This document shows, one piece after another, positions 2,262 to 10,295 of a stretch of DNA of 64,000 nt. The DNA is from an uncultured SAR86 cluster bacterium (GTDB lineage: Bacteria; Pseudomonadota; Gammaproteobacteria; Magnimaribacterales; AG-339-G14), in NCBI GenBank assembly GCA_902594855.1, contig CACJNS010000003.1, forward strand, positions 1 to 64,000, read 5' to 3'. A program made the translations under genes and the position numbers. The notes beneath the pieces were generated by a model, which saw only the letters and a program-made list of their open reading frames with translations, was not told the DNA's origin and made no database searches. Each line of letters begins with the position of its first letter. Position 1 is the stretch's first letter.

Positions 2262-4034
2262 ATGGATACCAATCAAATCATACTTTCAGCCATACTTTTA
2301 GTAATGGTGGGAATGTTTATATGGGGAAGATATCGCTATGATGCAGTTGCGCTTACAAGTTTAGCGGTTTTAGTGGTGCTTGGATTTGTGCCTGCAAAAG
2401 AAGCATTCGTTGGCTTTGGCCATCCAGCTGTTATAACTGTCGCACTTGTATTGTTGATAAGTAAGGGCTTAGAAGCTTCAGGATTGATAGGAAAAATTGG
2501 CAGCCTTCTTCAAAAAATTGCCAGCAGCGAATTTCAATTTCTTGTGATCTTGATGGGAATAGCGGTTGTTCTGTCTTCATTCATGAACAATATCGGAGCT
2601 ATGGCGATGCTTCTACCGGTTACTTTAGGAATATGCCAAAAAATGAGCTGGTCCCCTTCTAAATTTTTGATGCCTCTTGCTTTTGCATCTATTTTAGGCG
2701 GAATGAATACTAAAATAGGAACACCTCCAAACATTATTATTTCTGAATTTAGAGATCAATATTCCGATAAAGGCTTTGAATTCTTTGATTTTGCCTATGC
2801 TGGATTACCTGTAAGCATTGGTGGTTTGGTTTTCATAGCATTATTAGGATTCATACTTGTAAAAAATAGATCTGGAGAAAATGACTCTTCCTCTTTAGTG
2901 GATATTAATGAATATTTAGTGGAATTAGTAATAGATAAAGATAGTGAACTTATTGGTAAAAGAACCCAAGAGTTTAGGAAAGAATTAGGATCTGACATTG
3001 TACTTATTGGGTCTGTTAATGAGTCCTCAGATGCTAGAGAAATATTAAGTAATTTTGATGAATTAAAAGAATCACAAATATTGCTTTTAAAAATTAATCC
3101 TGAAGAAGTATCTGGTCTCCAAGAAAAATATGGACTATCCCTTAGAACAGAAATTAAAGATCTAGATTCAGGAAGTTTTGGTGAAATTGAAACTATGATT
3201 TCTCCTGGCTCTAGATTGATAGGAAGAACTATAGACTATTTTTCTACAATGGCAGGAAGACAAATGGCTATTTTAGGGCTTTGGAGAAAAGGAACAAATT
3301 TTCAAGGAAGTTTATCAAACGAGCACTTTAAATCTGGAGATGTATTATTAATTGCAACGAGGGAAGAACAAAAAGATACTAGCGAAAAAATGCAGGATCT
3401 AGGCCTTATGCCTTTGTGGCAAAGAGAACTAGATGTAATAAAAGATGACTCTAAAATTCTTTTATCGCTAGGTTTATTTTCATTTAGTTTACTTCTTGTT
3501 ATCACAAATTTTTTAAATGTTGTCATTGCTTTTTTGCTATGTGTTTTAGCTTTTGTAGCCTCTAAATTACTAAAGCCAAATATGCTTTACAGGCATATTG
3601 AATGGCCTGTCATTGTATTACTTGGGGCTATGATCCCAATTGGCGATGCATTGTATGACAGCGGCCTTACCAATATTCTTGCAACTGCTATAGCCACTCA
3701 ATCAATTCAATTTGGTTTAGTAGGCACTTTAATTATTTTAATGGTTGCAACCATGTGTTTATCAGATGTCATTAATAATGCAGCTACAGCTGTTATCATG
3801 GGACCAATATCAGTAACCATAGCTAATCAGTTAGGCCACCCTACTGAACCTTTCTTGATGTGTGTTGCCATAGGTGCAAGCTGCGCTTTTCTTTCTCCAA
3901 TAGGTCATCAATGCAATACTTTAGTGATGGGGCCTGGTAATTATAAATTTGGAGATTATTGGAAACTTGGATTGCCTTTGGAGCTTCTGATCATTGCGAT
4001 ATCAACTCCTTTGCTACTTATTTTTTGGTTCTAG
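2262..4034 (+). CDS. SLC13/CitMHS-type permease with central RCK_C (TrkA-C) domains
   Basis: 590 aa, two TM blocks with FMNNIGAMAMLLPV and DVINNAATAVIMGPI motifs and two central RCK_C-like repeats. Confidence 0.8.
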   Translation: MDTNQIILSAILLVMVGMFIWGRYRYDAVALTSLAVLVVLGFVPAKEAFVGFGHPAVITVALVLLISKGLEASGLIGKIGSLLQKIASSEFQFLVILMGIAVVLSSFMNNIGAMAMLLPVTLGICQKMSWSPSKFLMPLAFASILGGMNTKIGTPPNIIISEFRDQYSDKGFEFFDFAYAGLPVSIGGLVFIALLGFILVKNRSGENDSSSLVDINEYLVELVIDKDSELIGKRTQEFRKELGSDIVLIGSVNESSDAREILSNFDELKESQILLLKINPEEVSGLQEKYGLSLRTEIKDLDSGSFGEIETMISPGSRLIGRTIDYFSTMAGRQMAILGLWRKGTNFQGSLSNEHFKSGDVLLIATREEQKDTSEKMQDLGLMPLWQRELDVIKDDSKILLSLGLFSFSLLLVITNFLNVVIAFLLCVLAFVASKLLKPNMLYRHIEWPVIVLLGAMIPIGDALYDSGLTNILATAIATQSIQFGLVGTLIILMVATMCLSDVINNAATAVIMGPISVTIANQLGHPTEPFLMCVAIGASCAFLSPIGHQCNTLVMGPGNYKFGDYWKLGLPLELLIIAISTPLLLIFWF

Positions 4035-4273
4035 TAACCCTGAATTATTGTTCCTCTTACAAAGAGTTCATAGTAGCGAGAGCAATTATATTTTCTCAGC
4101 TTTATAAGCATATCAAGGTATTTTTGTTTATCTGCTTCTAAAGACGATTTGTGATCTAAATAACAAGCATCAAACTCATCCAAATCATACATAGAGTTTT
4201 TTACAACTTTTTCGTAAGTGCAAGAAAGTAAAGTAAGAGATATTAAAAGAACCAAATAGTTATTGATTCTCAT
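4031..4273 (-). CDS. Small lipoprotein, hypothetical
   Basis: MRINNYLVLLISLTLLSC lipobox; 4-nt convergent overlap with the SLC13 gene. Confidence 0.5.
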   Translation of the reverse strand: MRINNYLVLLISLTLLSCTYEKVVKNSMYDLDEFDACYLDHKSSLEADKQKYLDMLIKLRKYNCSRYYELFVRGTIIQGY

Positions 4274-4985
4274 CTGCGCTTAATTGACCGCTACTTGATT
4301 TCTTTGACATTACATCGACAATAATTCCAATGACCATGTTTAACATTATGACAGCATTCAAAAGAATAAAACTTATAAAGTAAATCCAAACCCAAGGGAA
4401 AACTTCAATAATATCTTTCATTACTGCTGCCCAGTCATCGTAGGTGGCAACCTGTGCAAGAGTTAGCATTGCTAAACCAATATTACCCCAATGCTCTGGG
4501 TCAGTAGTTCCAAAAACTAACGTACCTATAGCAGCCCATATATATATGAAAATGAACATTAGAAGCGCAACAAAGCCAACTCTTGGAAGAGTCTCAAATA
4601 AAGCATCAACAATTTTCTTTAATGCAGGCACGACTGTGATAATTCTCAGTACTCTTACTATTCTAAGTAACCTTGCTACAAAGGCTGTTTCTCCACCAGT
4701 AATAGGAATTAAGCTGACTGTCACAATTATGAAATCAAATATGTTCCATCCACTTTGAAAAAATTTAATTAAGGATCTTTCAGCGACAATTCTTATTATT
4801 ATCTCTATCAAAAAGAAAACTGTGATCGCAGTATCTAAGAAGTTCAAAATTCCTACATAGTCATCTGAAAGATCATAAGAACTTACTCCTGCGTAGATAG
4901 CAGAACCAATTATTACAAAGATGACTATACCGTTAAAAAAACTGCTGTTTCTGATCTTTAAGAAAAATTGAACTATTTGATTCAT
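4260..4985 (-). CDS. Voltage-gated cation channel, single-repeat BacNav/NaChBac type
   Basis: Six-TM ion_trans architecture; S4 RLLRIVRVLR; pore TLAQVATYDDWAAVM. Confidence 0.85.
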   Translation of the reverse strand: MNQIVQFFLKIRNSSFFNGIVIFVIIGSAIYAGVSSYDLSDDYVGILNFLDTAITVFFLIEIIIRIVAERSLIKFFQSGWNIFDFIIVTVSLIPITGGETAFVARLLRIVRVLRIITVVPALKKIVDALFETLPRVGFVALLMFIFIYIWAAIGTLVFGTTDPEHWGNIGLAMLTLAQVATYDDWAAVMKDIIEVFPWVWIYFISFILLNAVIMLNMVIGIIVDVMSKKSSSGQLSADENQ

Positions 4986-5017: not shown

Positions 5018-6340
5018 TTAATTATTTAAACAAAGATAAGAAAGGTTCAAACCAACATCTGTATTACTTCTAGAAAAAATATCTATGCTACTTCTATTAT
5101 CGAAAGGTTTAACGAATATATTCATTGATAAGCAGTTTATATAAAGTCTAGAAAAGGTTAAATCAGAAGATTCATTTATATCTTTTCTAACCCCTAACGG
5201 ACCATTAGGCGCAAGGTAGTTTTTTGTCGACCAATCATAATTGGTTGCCATTACCCAAGAATCAGGCAATGGCATGCGATAACTAAAACCGAATCCCCAT
5301 TGCCTAAAGGACTCAAATTTTTCATTTGCTTCATATTTATCGCTAAAAACATTCAAAGTCCAACTTGAATTATTATTAGGTAAAAAGAATGTATTATTTA
5401 CAAAAGTTCCGTAACGATAACCACTTTTTGCTTCTAGACCTATAAAGTTCCTTTTGTCTATATTGAAACCATAATCAAAATTTGATCCATTTTCTAAAGT
5501 GCCTGAATGACTAACGCTAAAAGCATTTGATTCTAAAAGTGCTTCACCCGATAGGTATACCTGAATTCTGGTAAAACTGGGAGTGACACTTGGACTTTTA
5601 AGAATTCCTAATCTACCTTCTTCCACCTCAAGTTTACTGTTAATTCCAAAAACTAAACTTCTTTGATCAAATTGAGTGAATCTTGATTGATAAGTAGTAG
5701 CCAGCGCTAAAAAGTAATTTATTGAATCTCCTCGAGGATTATTTAAGTTTTGAGTAAGTGAAACGTTATAATTAAATGATAATTTTGAGTCAGACTGAGG
5801 TTTAGAATCAGGACTCACTTCTAAGGGAAATCCTGCTATTTCAATGATATCTGCATCTATCCCAGCATTAGCATTTGTTGAGCTTGAAAATCCAAATGTC
5901 ATTAATTGATTTACCTTCAAAGGTTTTTCTTGCTCTTCTATAGCAGAAAGAAAAGACTCAACTTTTGTAACTACTTCTTCTGGAGGATCGTAATCTTTGA
6001 CACTATCTAAATATAGTTTTGCTGGAGCGTAAGCTTCTAATCTGAAATATAGTACTCCTAGCTCTAATCTAATCCTCGCAAGGGTCGGATCGTATATAAG
6101 CATTTGCTCAAAGACTCCAATTGCTGCCTCTAAATCACCCAATATGATGGATAAATTGGCATATTTGAATAAATTGCTTTGATTGGTTGGTTCTTCTAAT
6201 AATTGATCAAAGATTAGTTGTCTTTCTTTTCTGATAGTTTCTAATTGCTCAGGATCAGATATAGTTGGTGGAACATTTTGCGAAGAAGCAAAAAAGGTCA
6301 AACCAAAGACAAATAGTAATAAAATATACTTACTAGACAT
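5018..6340 (-). CDS. TPR-containing outer-membrane beta-barrel protein (surface lipoprotein assembly modifier-like)
   Basis: Signal peptide, TPR-like segment (LEAAIGVFEQMLIYDPTLARIRLELGVLYFRLEAYAPAKLYLD), then an aromatic-rich alternating barrel-like C-terminus. Confidence 0.6.
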   Translation of the reverse strand: MSSKYILLLFVFGLTFFASSQNVPPTISDPEQLETIRKERQLIFDQLLEEPTNQSNLFKYANLSIILGDLEAAIGVFEQMLIYDPTLARIRLELGVLYFRLEAYAPAKLYLDSVKDYDPPEEVVTKVESFLSAIEEQEKPLKVNQLMTFGFSSSTNANAGIDADIIEIAGFPLEVSPDSKPQSDSKLSFNYNVSLTQNLNNPRGDSINYFLALATTYQSRFTQFDQRSLVFGINSKLEVEEGRLGILKSPSVTPSFTRIQVYLSGEALLESNAFSVSHSGTLENGSNFDYGFNIDKRNFIGLEAKSGYRYGTFVNNTFFLPNNNSSWTLNVFSDKYEANEKFESFRQWGFGFSYRMPLPDSWVMATNYDWSTKNYLAPNGPLGVRKDINESSDLTFSRLYINCLSMNIFVKPFDNRSSIDIFSRSNTDVGLNLSYLCLNN

Positions 6341-6377: not shown

Positions 6378-8561
6378 ATGAAGAACATTCAAAAAAAATT
6401 GTTATTGCCAATGGCAATTTTAATTGGATTAATTCCTCTAGCTAATCCTTTGAACATTTTCGATGAATTAAGATTATTTGCATTCGATACTTTGCAACAA
6501 ATAAATCCAAGAGAACCATTGGAAGATGATCCTGTGGTTATTATAGATATTGATGATGAATCTCTTAATAATCTTGGTCAATGGCCATGGTCTAGAGATT
6601 TATTATCTAAATTAGTCCAGCAAACAGAACAAGCTCTTACAACATCATTCGATATCGTTTTTGCAGAAAGAGATAGAACTGGGAGTGATGTTCTCACTGA
6701 GCAATATTCAGATAACTCGGAGTTAGTTAATGAGCTGAAGAAAATTAAACCTAACGACTTAGTTTTTGCTGAATCTATGCAAGCTCATACAACCGTAGTA
6801 CTTGGAAGCGCACCTAACAATAAATTAATCAGTCAATCTATCAAACCTAAATTTGGTTTAATTATTCAAGGTGATACACCTAATGAATTTTTACCAAATT
6901 ATTCTGGTATGCAAAATAATCTGCCTTCATTGATTTCTTCTGCAGCGGGAGTTGGATCTATGAGTATTGGCGGAGATTCAAGCATTGTTAGAAGCTTACC
7001 AACTTTTGAAATAGTTAGTGGGCAGATCGTTCCCTCTCTGATGCTAGAAACTTTGAGAGTAGCAATAGGAGCAAGTACTTATCAAATAAAATCTTCTAAT
7101 GCTTCAGGAGAACTTGCTTTTGGAGAGAGCACCGGAATTAATAACATTAAATTAGGAAATGTGATTGTACCAACTAATGCAAATGGAAATTTATGGTTAC
7201 ATTCAACTTATACAGAAAATTTAAATGTTATTCCCGCCTTTAAAGTACTTAACAATACTTTCGATAGAGAGTACTTTGCTGGAAAAATTGTCCTAGTTGG
7301 AACGAGCGCATCTGGCTTACTTGATATTAGAAACACATCTTTAGAGAAAGATATTCCAGGTGTAACAGTCATAGCTCAAGGAATTCAACAAATTATAAAT
7401 GGCGAGTTTTTAGTTAGACCAGATTGGATGGAAGGAGGAGAATTTATATTTGGATTATTTTTTTCTATTTTAATATGTTTAATCATTCAATATTTTGGCC
7501 CTACTGGAGGATTGATCACATTTCTAGTTGCAAATATGTCAAGTCTCTACGGTTCTTACTACGGATTTAACAATTTAGATTATTTAATTGATCCTATATC
7601 TCCATTGGTAATATGCTTAACAAGTTATCTAATAATTACATTTTTTAATTTTTTATTTACTGAACTAGAACGAAGTAAGGTTAGGACTGCGTTTTCTCAA
7701 TATTTAGCACCAGAAATGGTTTCTAGACTTGCTGAATCAAGTGAATCGTTAAAGCTAGGTGGAGAGAAGAAAAATATGACCTTTCTGTTTTCTGATATCA
7801 GAGGTTTTACAGCAATATCAGAAAGTTATAAATCTAATCCTGAAGAGCTAACGGAACTTATAAATAACCTCCTTACAGTGCTATCAAATGAAATTTTAGA
7901 TAACGCTGGCACTATTGATAAATATATGGGAGATTGCATTATGGCTTTTTGGAATGCACCCACAGATCAAGAAAATCATACCGATTTAGCTTTAAAAGCG
8001 TCTTTTGATATGGAGAAAGCGTTAGAGCAATTTAATATTGAGTTCCAAAAGCAAAAAGGTATGGAGTTAAAAATTGGTATTGGAATCAATACAGGAGAAT
8101 GTATTGTTGGAAATATGGGTTCTGAAAAAAGGTTTGATTATACGGTCTTAGGTGACCCTGTAAACCTTGCTTCAAGATTAGAAGGTCAATCTGGAACTTA
8201 TGGATTTCAGAGGATTCTTGGTCAAGAAACAGTGAATGCTCTTAAATCAAATGCAAATCTTTTCGAATTAGATCTGATTCAAGTAAAAGGAAAAAGTGAA
8301 CCCGTAAAAATTTATACTTCTTTTGATAAATTCTCATTGAAAGATGAAAAATTATCTGAGTTCAGTAAAGATCATGAAGAATTTCTTCATAATTACAGAA
8401 ATCAACAATGGGATTTAGCTTTAAACTTTATTAAGAAATGGGAGCAACAAGTTACAGAGTTTGATTTATACTACGCTATTTTTAAAGACAGAATTAAAGA
8501 TATGAAGCTTAATTTAGCTGATCCAAATTGGAATGGAGCGTACGTTGCAACAACTAAGTAA
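6378..8561 (+). CDS. CHASE2-domain class III adenylate cyclase
   Basis: Extracytoplasmic CHASE2 region, TM segments, then FLFSDIRGFT, TIDKYMGDCIMAFW, DYTVLGDPVNLASRLEG. Both metal Asp, Lys/Asp adenine specifiers and Asn/Arg are present. Confidence 0.9.
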   Translation: MKNIQKKLLLPMAILIGLIPLANPLNIFDELRLFAFDTLQQINPREPLEDDPVVIIDIDDESLNNLGQWPWSRDLLSKLVQQTEQALTTSFDIVFAERDRTGSDVLTEQYSDNSELVNELKKIKPNDLVFAESMQAHTTVVLGSAPNNKLISQSIKPKFGLIIQGDTPNEFLPNYSGMQNNLPSLISSAAGVGSMSIGGDSSIVRSLPTFEIVSGQIVPSLMLETLRVAIGASTYQIKSSNASGELAFGESTGINNIKLGNVIVPTNANGNLWLHSTYTENLNVIPAFKVLNNTFDREYFAGKIVLVGTSASGLLDIRNTSLEKDIPGVTVIAQGIQQIINGEFLVRPDWMEGGEFIFGLFFSILICLIIQYFGPTGGLITFLVANMSSLYGSYYGFNNLDYLIDPISPLVICLTSYLIITFFNFLFTELERSKVRTAFSQYLAPEMVSRLAESSESLKLGGEKKNMTFLFSDIRGFTAISESYKSNPEELTELINNLLTVLSNEILDNAGTIDKYMGDCIMAFWNAPTDQENHTDLALKASFDMEKALEQFNIEFQKQKGMELKIGIGINTGECIVGNMGSEKRFDYTVLGDPVNLASRLEGQSGTYGFQRILGQETVNALKSNANLFELDLIQVKGKSEPVKIYTSFDKFSLKDEKLSEFSKDHEEFLHNYRNQQWDLALNFIKKWEQQVTEFDLYYAIFKDRIKDMKLNLADPNWNGAYVATTK

Positions 8562-9285
8562 ACTCCTCTTTATTACATTATTTTTGCCGTCAATGGCTAT
8601 TTCTCAGACTATTGTGAACATAGAAGAGTTAAGAAATGAAGGTAAAGAAGGTTTTTTTGCTGGTCTTGGTTTTTCTTTGAATGCTTCAAGGGGTAACAGA
8701 GATAGAGACTATTATTCATTTGATCTAAGATTTGACTACAATCTTGATGATGTCGAAAATTTCATGATTCTAAGAAAATCTGAAAGGAAAATAAATCAAA
8801 ACGTCACGGATATATCGCAACTCATTCATATAAGATCTGTCTTTGAGACATACAATCAGTACCATACTGAATTCTTTATCCAGTCAGCTAAAAATCCTTT
8901 TAGATTATTTAGAGAAAGAAACTTATTTGGTACCGGTTTAAGAATGATCATAGATGATCAAATGAGATTTGGAGCAGGCGTTATTTATGAAGAGGAAACT
9001 GATTTAGAAGATTCAGTCACTGATACAACAAGATTCTCTCTTTATTTCCATGATAATTTTGAAATTGCTGAAAACGTTAACTTCAATACAACTATTTATT
9101 ATCAGCCCGATATATTGGATTTTAACGATTACAAAACAAGCTTCTTAATGGCTTTTAATTTTAAAGTTAATGAAAAATTTAGTATCAGCCTTCAGTACGA
9201 TATTGCTTACGATTCGGAACCTATATTGAATGCCGTTGAGGATGATCAAGGATTAAGTACTAAATTCTCTTATTCCTTTAATTAA
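8533..9285 (+). CDS. Putative outer-membrane protein (DUF481-like)
   Basis: Signal peptide LLFITLFLPSMAISQ; beta-rich sequence ending FSYSFN; overlaps the cyclase by 29 nt. Confidence 0.5.
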   Translation: MERTLQQLSKLLFITLFLPSMAISQTIVNIEELRNEGKEGFFAGLGFSLNASRGNRDRDYYSFDLRFDYNLDDVENFMILRKSERKINQNVTDISQLIHIRSVFETYNQYHTEFFIQSAKNPFRLFRERNLFGTGLRMIIDDQMRFGAGVIYEEETDLEDSVTDTTRFSLYFHDNFEIAENVNFNTTIYYQPDILDFNDYKTSFLMAFNFKVNEKFSISLQYDIAYDSEPILNAVEDDQGLSTKFSYSFN

Positions 9286-10295
9286 CCGGTTCTATCTAAA
9301 CTTACTTTTTCAAGCTCCTCAAAAAGATGAGGATACTCTTCCATTAATTCTTCAAGGTCTTCTTTTGATAAAGAGAGTAGTTTAACTTCTTCTAGAGAGC
9401 TAATCGACGCATTACGCACTTCCTTGGAAAGAATTCCTTTTTCACCGAAATAGTCGCCCTGCCCCAAGGTAACAGGAGATTCTATTTCAACTTGCACCGA
9501 ACCAAACTCAATGATGTACATGCAATCCGCCTCATCACCTTTTTCAATAATTTTTCTTTTAGCAGGATAAATCTCTGCAACCAACTTATCGTTTATTTTG
9601 CTTAATGCTCCAATAGGCAACATAGAAAATAATGGAATGCTGGAAATTGTTTCCATCGTGATAAGAAAGTTTCTCTTTTGAATTTCTTCATAATAAGCAG
9701 ATGCTAATATTGCTGCAGGTAATGCAAACATCCCGATACCTAAAAACATAGTTAGAGAAGTTAAAACCTGACCTAAAGGAGAAGATGGAGTTACGTCTCC
9801 ATAACCTACTGTCGTTAAGGTTGCTATTCCAAACCACATTGAGTTAAGAATAGATCCAAAATATTCAGGATTAATATCCCTCTCAATAAAGTGAATTAAA
9901 GTAGAGAAAATCAACAGAACAGAAAAAACCATTATCTGAGACCCTAATAACGCTAATCGTTGGTTATACACTGTTCTCAGTAAGGTGTTTGTTGGTAACA
10001 ACATCTTATGGTTACTGTAAATTGAATAAGCTCTGAAAATTCTTAATATTCTTAAATCGTAAAAACCAAAGAAAACATAATTAGCAAGAACTACAAAATC
10101 AAAAACTAACAAGAAAGAAAATCTTCGTTCAATAACAATCCTTAAAATGAACTCTGTCCCAAAAAAAATATACGAAGCTATAACAAAAATATCAAAATAA
10201 ATGTTTTCTGGAATAATTTTGCTTGAAGATAAAATCTGATCAAAAATATTTAATAAAATTAAAATACCAGCAATATTATTAATATATTTGATCAT
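9282..10295 (-). CDS. K+ channel with C-terminal cyclic-nucleotide-binding domain
   Basis: Filter TLTTVGYGD; CNBD phosphate-binding cassette GDYFGEKGILSKEVRNAS. Confidence 0.88.
   Translation of the reverse strand: MIKYINNIAGILILLNIFDQILSSSKIIPENIYFDIFVIASYIFFGTEFILRIVIERRFSFLLVFDFVVLANYVFFGFYDLRILRIFRAYSIYSNHKMLLPTNTLLRTVYNQRLALLGSQIMVFSVLLIFSTLIHFIERDINPEYFGSILNSMWFGIATLTTVGYGDVTPSSPLGQVLTSLTMFLGIGMFALPAAILASAYYEEIQKRNFLITMETISSIPLFSMLPIGALSKINDKLVAEIYPAKRKIIEKGDEADCMYIIEFGSVQVEIESPVTLGQGDYFGEKGILSKEVRNASISSLEEVKLLSLSKEDLEELMEEYPHLFEELEKVSLDRTG

Follow-up and report, generated by a model that had tools for sequence, protein, structure and literature searches.

A conserved Asp-Asp selectivity filter in a putative voltage-gated cation channel, probably of the NavRh/ancestor-like lineage, from SAR86 bacteria

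Introduction

NavAb and NaChBac are the parents of the engineered channels CavAb and CaChBac, and CatSper1 is a eukaryotic channel that works in a heterotetramer with CatSper2-4. The published rules linking a filter sequence to the choice between Ca2+ and Na+ conflict, resting on the charge count, on a 'beacon' Asp or on a Gly at position 4 (counting the filter Thr as position 1), and CavMr is the sole native prokaryotic Ca2+ channel that we found in the literature on filter selectivity. NaChBac with the filter LEDWAS (-8e) carries Ca2+ current (PMC7764494) and has also been described as non-selective (PMC4972137). According to the 'beacon' rule of Spafford, an Asp after the first acid, at position 4, brings Ca2+ selectivity or Ca2+ block (PMC10120453). 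The filter TLEDWTD makes NavPp a Na+-preferring channel (PCa/PNa 0.31) that is blocked by Ca2+, and gives a PCa/PNa of 13.8 when placed in CavMr (PMC7041947), which makes the scaffold as decisive as the filter. A Phe for Leu at position 2 causes no Ca2+ block in NavAb, Tyr not being among the mutants quoted (PMC10349818).

In our literature search we found neither a characterised channel with the filter TYDDW nor a paper linking SAR86 with a voltage-gated sodium channel. SAR86 group bacteria are abundant in the ocean, and seawater contains Ca2+ at about 10 mM. Here we describe a SAR86 channel gene with this filter, its relatives and its neighbour genes.

Channel gene and selectivity filter

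The stretch of DNA analysed (the window, 64,000 nucleotides) is contig C3 of a 1.23 Mb genome in 15 contigs, and the named relatives (95-97% identity) are SAR86 cluster bacteria. This genome encodes one channel of the family studied here and one K+ channel with a cNMP domain. The former and its parts are listed below.

4260..4985, minus strand: gene for a 241-aa voltage-gated cation channel with S1-S6 and a short C-terminal tail (Ion_trans and NavRh match)
4644..4673, minus strand: S4 gating charges R105, R108, R111 and R114, invariant in a 38-sequence alignment
4446..4481, minus strand: P1 pore helix, residues 169-180 (IGLAMLTLAQVA), from DSSP of the AlphaFold2 model
4428..4445, minus strand: selectivity filter T181-Y182-D183-D184-W185-A186, by direct translation, Asp-Asp invariant in 59 genes
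4407..4433, minus strand: P2 helix, residues 185-193 (AlphaFold2 model), its run to S6 one residue shorter than in NavAb/NaChBac
4293..4391, minus strand: S6 helix, residues 199-231 (AlphaFold2 model), with N216 invariant in the alignment

The product matched Ion_trans (Pfam) with 147.6 bits (cut-off 25), and profile and model agreed on a single six-transmembrane domain with S1-S6 and a P-loop. The AlphaFold2 model (monomer, 38-sequence alignment as input; pLDDT 80, pTM 0.60) has long helices as in a six-helix channel, with P1 at 169-180, a coil at 181-184 and P2 at 185-193 (DSSP). As this coil lies between P1 and P2, the filter is T181-Y-D-D-W185, and the preliminary description, which had allowed that an alignment might put the filter elsewhere, was right about its place. 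All the voltage-sensor residues (the four S4 arginines, E61 in S2 and D84 in S3) were invariant in the 38-row alignment, as were T181, W185 and N216. By sequence and modelled fold, the product is a single-domain six-helix voltage-gated cation channel. Its gating by voltage is predicted, NavRh itself having been non-functional in mammalian or insect cells (PMC4225499). The tail past S6 has only about 10-15 residues here, whereas most relatives with TFEDWTD reach a length of 265-300 aa.

The reverse complement of 4428-4445, ACCTACGATGACTGGGCA, translates to TYDDWA, and the next codon (4425-4427, GCA) gives A187, confirming the pore sequence TYDDWAA that had been read before. Positions 1, 3, 4 and 5 were T, D, D and W in 59/59 distinct DDW genes, with more freedom at position 2 (Tyr 58/59, Phe 1/59), position 6 (Ala 48/59, Gly 11/59) and position 7 (Ala 52/59, Asn 7/59). 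The two Asp are encoded by GAT or GAC in varying proportion (44/15 at position 3, 38/21 at position 4), and this constancy of Asp-Asp over varying codons argues that the pair is kept by purifying selection across the DDW genes and that the motif is not due to chance.

Register and phylogeny

The best single-domain PDB match was NavRh from alphaproteobacterium HIMB114 (4dxw, 211 bits), followed by wild-type NaChBac (163) and NavAb chains (about 145 or less), and the four NavRh 4dxw chains were also the top four fold matches (44% identity, fold search). Eukaryotic T-type Ca2+ channels reached a higher summed score only through several domains adding up. NavRh has the same 15-residue register as our channel, and its solved chain lacks a long C-terminal extension; the filters differ, that of NavRh (TLSSWE) having one acid elsewhere in the filter and that of the channel two Asp.

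We measured the register as the residues counted from the filter Trp to the Trp at the start of S6. In counts that take in near-identical copies, it was 15 residues in 85/85 DDW entries, 125/126 EDW+T and 5/6 EGW+P entries (both exceptions are without the landmark), 6 ESW+T entries and 12 SSW+E entries of the NavRh type, and 16 residues in 37/37 ESW+A/S entries, the NavAb/NaChBac type. The alignment of 245 sequences, which covered SAR86 (203 genomes of the order), members of the class and of the phylum, and named genomes, likewise made the channel lineage one residue shorter than NavAb/NaChBac directly past the filter Trp. Since this indel forces an arbitrary gap, CavAb D181 has no clean counterpart in the channel. 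The preliminary description had put an Ala at the position of the third CavAb Asp; A187 does follow, but the indel makes that ungapped reading uncertain. One subgroup with TFESWATAV (Halomonas, Marinospirillum, Marinobacterium; L048, L050-L052, L055, L066, L167) is nested in the 15-residue TFEDWTD clade and combines a canonical-like ESW filter with the longer spacing (16, one extra residue), as though the type of filter changed in step with the length of P2.

The main filters in the 245-sequence alignment were TFEDWTD/TLEDWTD, TYDDW[AG][AN], TLESWSM, TFESWAT, TLSSWE, TFESWT and TLEGWPD. An IQ-TREE phylogeny of 78 rows, built with the filter columns omitted, without an inferred root and without the sequences of NavPp and CavMr, contained a 100/99 branch with NavAb, NaChBac and the TLEDWTD group on one side and NavRh, the SSWE group and the DDW, TLEGWPD and TFEDWTD/TFESW channels on the other. 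The DDW channels, from SAR86 and its near relatives, fell into a single clade (100/99), whose sister was a set of three SAR86 TLEGWPD channels with a CavMr-like filter (97/88). Next came marine TFEDWTD channels from Halomonas and others, to which the H. elongata gene of PMC7041947 probably corresponds; the AnclNavs of Halomonas and Teredinibacter have a filter of this type (PMC7041947). NavRh fell in a separate SSWE clade (100/96), and its TxSSWE filter is not that of the channel. The same DDW filter occurred in two Woeseiaceae-labelled MAGs (L037, L038), sister to the SAR86 set in the tree, and in a Flammeovirgaceae-labelled MAG (L040) whose label is probably wrong. EDW filters lie on either side of the deepest branch of this unrooted tree, a distribution that fits an old origin of the acidic position 4.

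The preliminary description had called this a natural BacNav-type channel, with NaChBac and NavAb as points of comparison. We rejected a BacNav of the NaChBac/NavAb type on tree position and register: the filter is TYDDWAA rather than TLESW[SA]xG, the spacing is 15 rather than 16, and the 100/99 branch separates the DDW channels from NavAb and NaChBac, whereas NavRh is the closest solved homologue and shares the spacing. An acid at the second-Asp position is not exceptional in itself, being usual in marine gammaproteobacterial relatives (TFEDWTD). The DDW clade is set apart by its Tyr (position 2) and first Asp (position 3), and by having lost the third acid. Overall, the channel reads as a real, conserved natural variant of the NavRh/ancestor-like lineage and not as a natural CavAb.

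No SAR86 genome had more than one channel of this family, and the filters were very diverse: TYDDW/TFDDW, TLEGWPD (CavMr-like), T[LM]SSWE (NavRh-like) and TVSGWED (L154-L157, L025, L026, L158-L165, L153), all four of which occurred within one genus (g10) in different species. One species genome (G907, L260) carries the NavRh gene itself, with a branch length of about 0 to the 4dxw sequence. A single viral-contig homologue was found (L302, IMGVR_UViG_2693429859_000001, 39.7 kb, 47% identity), lying near one end of the contig and having the filter TFEDWTD, not DDW; it may belong to the host flank of a prophage.

Ion selectivity

The sequence, family, conservation, voltage-sensor residues, phylogeny and conserved gene cluster are established directly here. 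Our main reading, which we hold with a probability of about 0.72, is that the channel is a member of the NavRh/ancestor-like lineage with a divalent-binding -8e filter and not a plain Na+ channel. Such a channel of the NavRh or 'ancestor-like BacNav' lineage would be a homotetramer opened by depolarisation, with tetramer and gating polarity both predicted, and would carry a formal charge of -8e at the pore entrance. Judging from the filter residues, the putative DD site probably binds divalents, and its affinity for Ca2+ would be far higher than that of TLESW or TLSSWE filters (-4e). In seawater, the pore would then be Ca2+-permeable (mixed Ca2+/Na+) or would carry Na+ under strong Ca2+ block. 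The sister TLEGWPD clade, also -8e and CavMr-like, was counted in favour of an interaction with Ca2+, as were the Ca2+ current of NaChBac LEDWAS, the NsvBa filter LDDWAD, the weaker Na+ selectivity with Asp at position 3, the beacon rule and the CatSper1 filter; the cadherin domains of a giant protein in the gene cluster described below and a Na/Ca-exchanger-family protein encoded in the host genome are weak hints of a Ca2+ role. Within these bounds, Ca2+ permeation with PCa/PNa above 1 has a little less than an even chance, a Na+ or mixed channel blocked by Ca2+ is a serious possibility below even odds, a plain Na+ channel is improbable, and some other behaviour is very improbable. The suspicion that this is not a plain Na+ channel, voiced in the preliminary description, thus holds up in that a divalent-binding filter makes such a channel unlikely, with Ca2+ permeation and Ca2+ block as the two candidate behaviours.

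The strongest alternative, which we consider quite possible though short of an even chance, is a Na+ or mixed monovalent channel that seawater Ca2+ keeps shut and that is relieved as Ca2+ drops. NavPp (TLEDWTD), CavMr (TLEGWVD) and other ancestor-like BacNavs resemble our channel in being bacterial and single-domain with an acid or Gly at position 4 (PMC7041947), and NavPp, with its acidic position 4, behaves in just this manner (PMC7041947). In NavPp-T6A, which has Ala at position 6 as here, divalents give no inward current and block fully (PMC7041947), favouring block over permeation, and the beacon scheme has 'strong calcium block' as its class III (PMC10120453). The match is incomplete: our channel has Asp where NavPp and CavMr have Glu (position 3), and differs from them also in its Tyr (position 2) and its non-acidic position 7. 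NavPp, which has the Glu together with a third acid, has one acid ring more.

It is unlikely that the channel is a natural CavAb, Ca2+-selective by the CavAb mechanism with PCa/PNa of 10 or more. The first two CavAb substitutions are native here and the DD pair is invariant, and both CavAb/CaChBac and the channel have Asp at positions 3 and 4, natural only in the channel. In CatSper1 and the NavAb mutant 4mvu a beacon Asp goes with Ca2+ selectivity (PMC10120453), and LDDWAD in NsvBa gives a PCa/PNa of about 30 (PMC4225499). Against this, acids at positions 3, 4 and 7 make up the CavAb filter, and position 7 is Ala, or Asn in 7/59, with the third acid absent from all 59 distinct DDW genes; the P2 register is 15, not 16, residues, one fewer after the Trp; Tyr replaces Leu at position 2; and the parents of CavAb/CaChBac lie across the deepest branch of the tree from the channel. 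Furthermore, the CavAb/CaChBac-type filters TLEDWSD and TLEDWAD in NavPp kept or strengthened Ca2+ block without Ca2+ selectivity, and high Ca2+ selectivity in CavMr and NavPp came from Gly, not Asp, at position 4 (PMC7041947). Of the 'CavAb-like' label given earlier, the native Asp-Asp stands; in its strict sense we rejected it on the indel, the lack of a third acid and the NavPp precedent of block (PMC7041947).

CatSper1 (PDB 9ubw, 7eeb), with TLDDWSL, shares with our channel the pattern Thr-X-Asp-Asp-Trp followed by a small neutral residue, without a third acid; close kinship was not seen, and the likeness is likely convergence.

A plain Na+-selective channel with the DD filter as a mere lineage marker is improbable: the odd filter of NavRh was Na+-selective when grafted into NaChBac (PMC4225499) and the SAR86 habitat is Na+-rich seawater, but that filter, unlike DD, has one acid per subunit (-4e), and Asp at position 3 is reported to weaken Na+ selectivity (PMC4225499, PMC4972137), as for the first-site E-to-D filters NsvBa TLDSWGS and NaChBac E192D (PMC4225499). 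Returning to the divalent-binding filter of our main reading, the DDW clade, with two Asp rings and a shorter P2 register, forms together with TLEGWPD, TFEDWTD, TFESWT and TLSSWE a natural series on which the conflicting rules can be tested.

Gene cluster

The genes beside the channel in the window are as follows.

4031..4273, minus strand: predicted lipoprotein of 80 aa (LLSC lipobox), an ORF overlapping the channel 3' end by 14 nt
5018..6340, minus strand: TPR and predicted beta-barrel outer-membrane protein (TPR_19, 26.8 bits), about 36 nt upstream of the channel
6378..8561, plus strand: class III nucleotide cyclase with a CHASE2 domain (CHASE2 143.9 bits, Guanylate_cyc 79.9 bits)
8533..9285, plus strand: DUF481 protein (PF04338, 54.4 bits), with the same neighbourhood in genomes G040 and G095
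9282..10295, minus strand: K+ channel (TVGYGD filter) with a C-terminal cyclic-nucleotide-binding domain (Ion_trans_2 57 bits, cNMP_binding 57.5 bits)

The 80-aa ORF had no Pfam match and was conserved, at 77-85%, only within the genus. To look for a conserved operon partner, we ran BLAST with every neighbour in the window; beyond the genus, nothing lay beside the channel except a distant relative of a 158-aa lipoprotein and scattered DASS or DUF481 matches. A giant cadherin gene, the main partner, emerged only when the upstream ORFs of all channel loci were clustered: for most DDW genes a member of this one family lies about 30-180 nt upstream, and for none of the EDW, ESW or SSWE genes. Its products are secreted proteins of about 2,000-2,500 aa where the ORF is complete and carry cadherin domains (PF00028, 205 bits), whose family as a rule binds Ca2+. 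In the host genome, two such cadherin-repeat proteins of 2265 and 2216 aa stand in tandem on another contig (C1, about 481.7-495.2 kb; L298:3748-17200), apart from the channel.

In G040 and G095 the genes run from the cNMP-domain K+ channel through the DUF481 protein, CHASE2 cyclase, divergent TPR protein and giant to the DDW channel, with an extra ORF at the DUF481 step in G095; the window has the same order and lacks the giant alone. In SAR86 genomes other than that of the window, the TPR gene precedes the giant cadherin gene. Among 202 genomes of the order, many of them fragmentary and related by a shared ancestry that inflates the association, the channel was present in 57, the CHASE2 cyclase in 49 and both in 43, and cyclase and cNMP K+ channel co-occurred in 45, within 3 kb in 45/45. 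Channel and TPR gene lay within 25 kb in 23 genomes, 36 nt apart in the genus of the window and about 6-13 kb apart elsewhere, which leaves room for a giant. In another genus of the family (g3), the channel stays with the giant, and cyclase, TPR protein and K+ channel are together elsewhere (e.g. G010).

The barrel of the TPR protein is predicted from our reading of its sequence. An identification as Slam of type XI secretion was not supported, as TPR_Slam scored 13-17 bits against a cut-off of 35.2 and no barrel family was found; that the protein is a Slam with the giant as its substrate is a suspicion at a Pfam score below cut-off.

As far as the literature shows, this conserved SAR86 cluster of cNMP K+ channel, DUF481 protein, CHASE2 cyclase, TPR protein and giant is new. 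It suggests that the channel and the clustered cyclase, cNMP K+ channel and cadherin-repeat protein may act in one pathway, which would link Ca2+ and cyclic nucleotide with membrane voltage at the cell surface; the proposal rests on co-localisation and hints at the job of an ion channel in a streamlined, uncultured ocean bacterium. The fuller version, in which SAR86 has a native Ca2+ channel whose double-Asp filter is of the CatSper1 type and which shares a signalling module with its conserved neighbours (CHASE2 cyclase, cNMP K+ channel and a giant surface protein with Ca2+-binding cadherin repeats), we regard as doubtful; if true, one of the most common bacteria in the ocean would link voltage with Ca2+ and cyclic nucleotides.

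One copy of the cluster (G033:C1:495699-501160) has 8 in-frame stops in the cNMP K+ channel, 4 in the TPR gene and a cyclase match that starts from residue 150, and is either decaying or badly sequenced. At another locus (L023, G003:C39), one ORF runs from the N-terminal part of a CHASE2 cyclase into the channel, present from residue 97 onward, apparently through an assembly join or a deletion.
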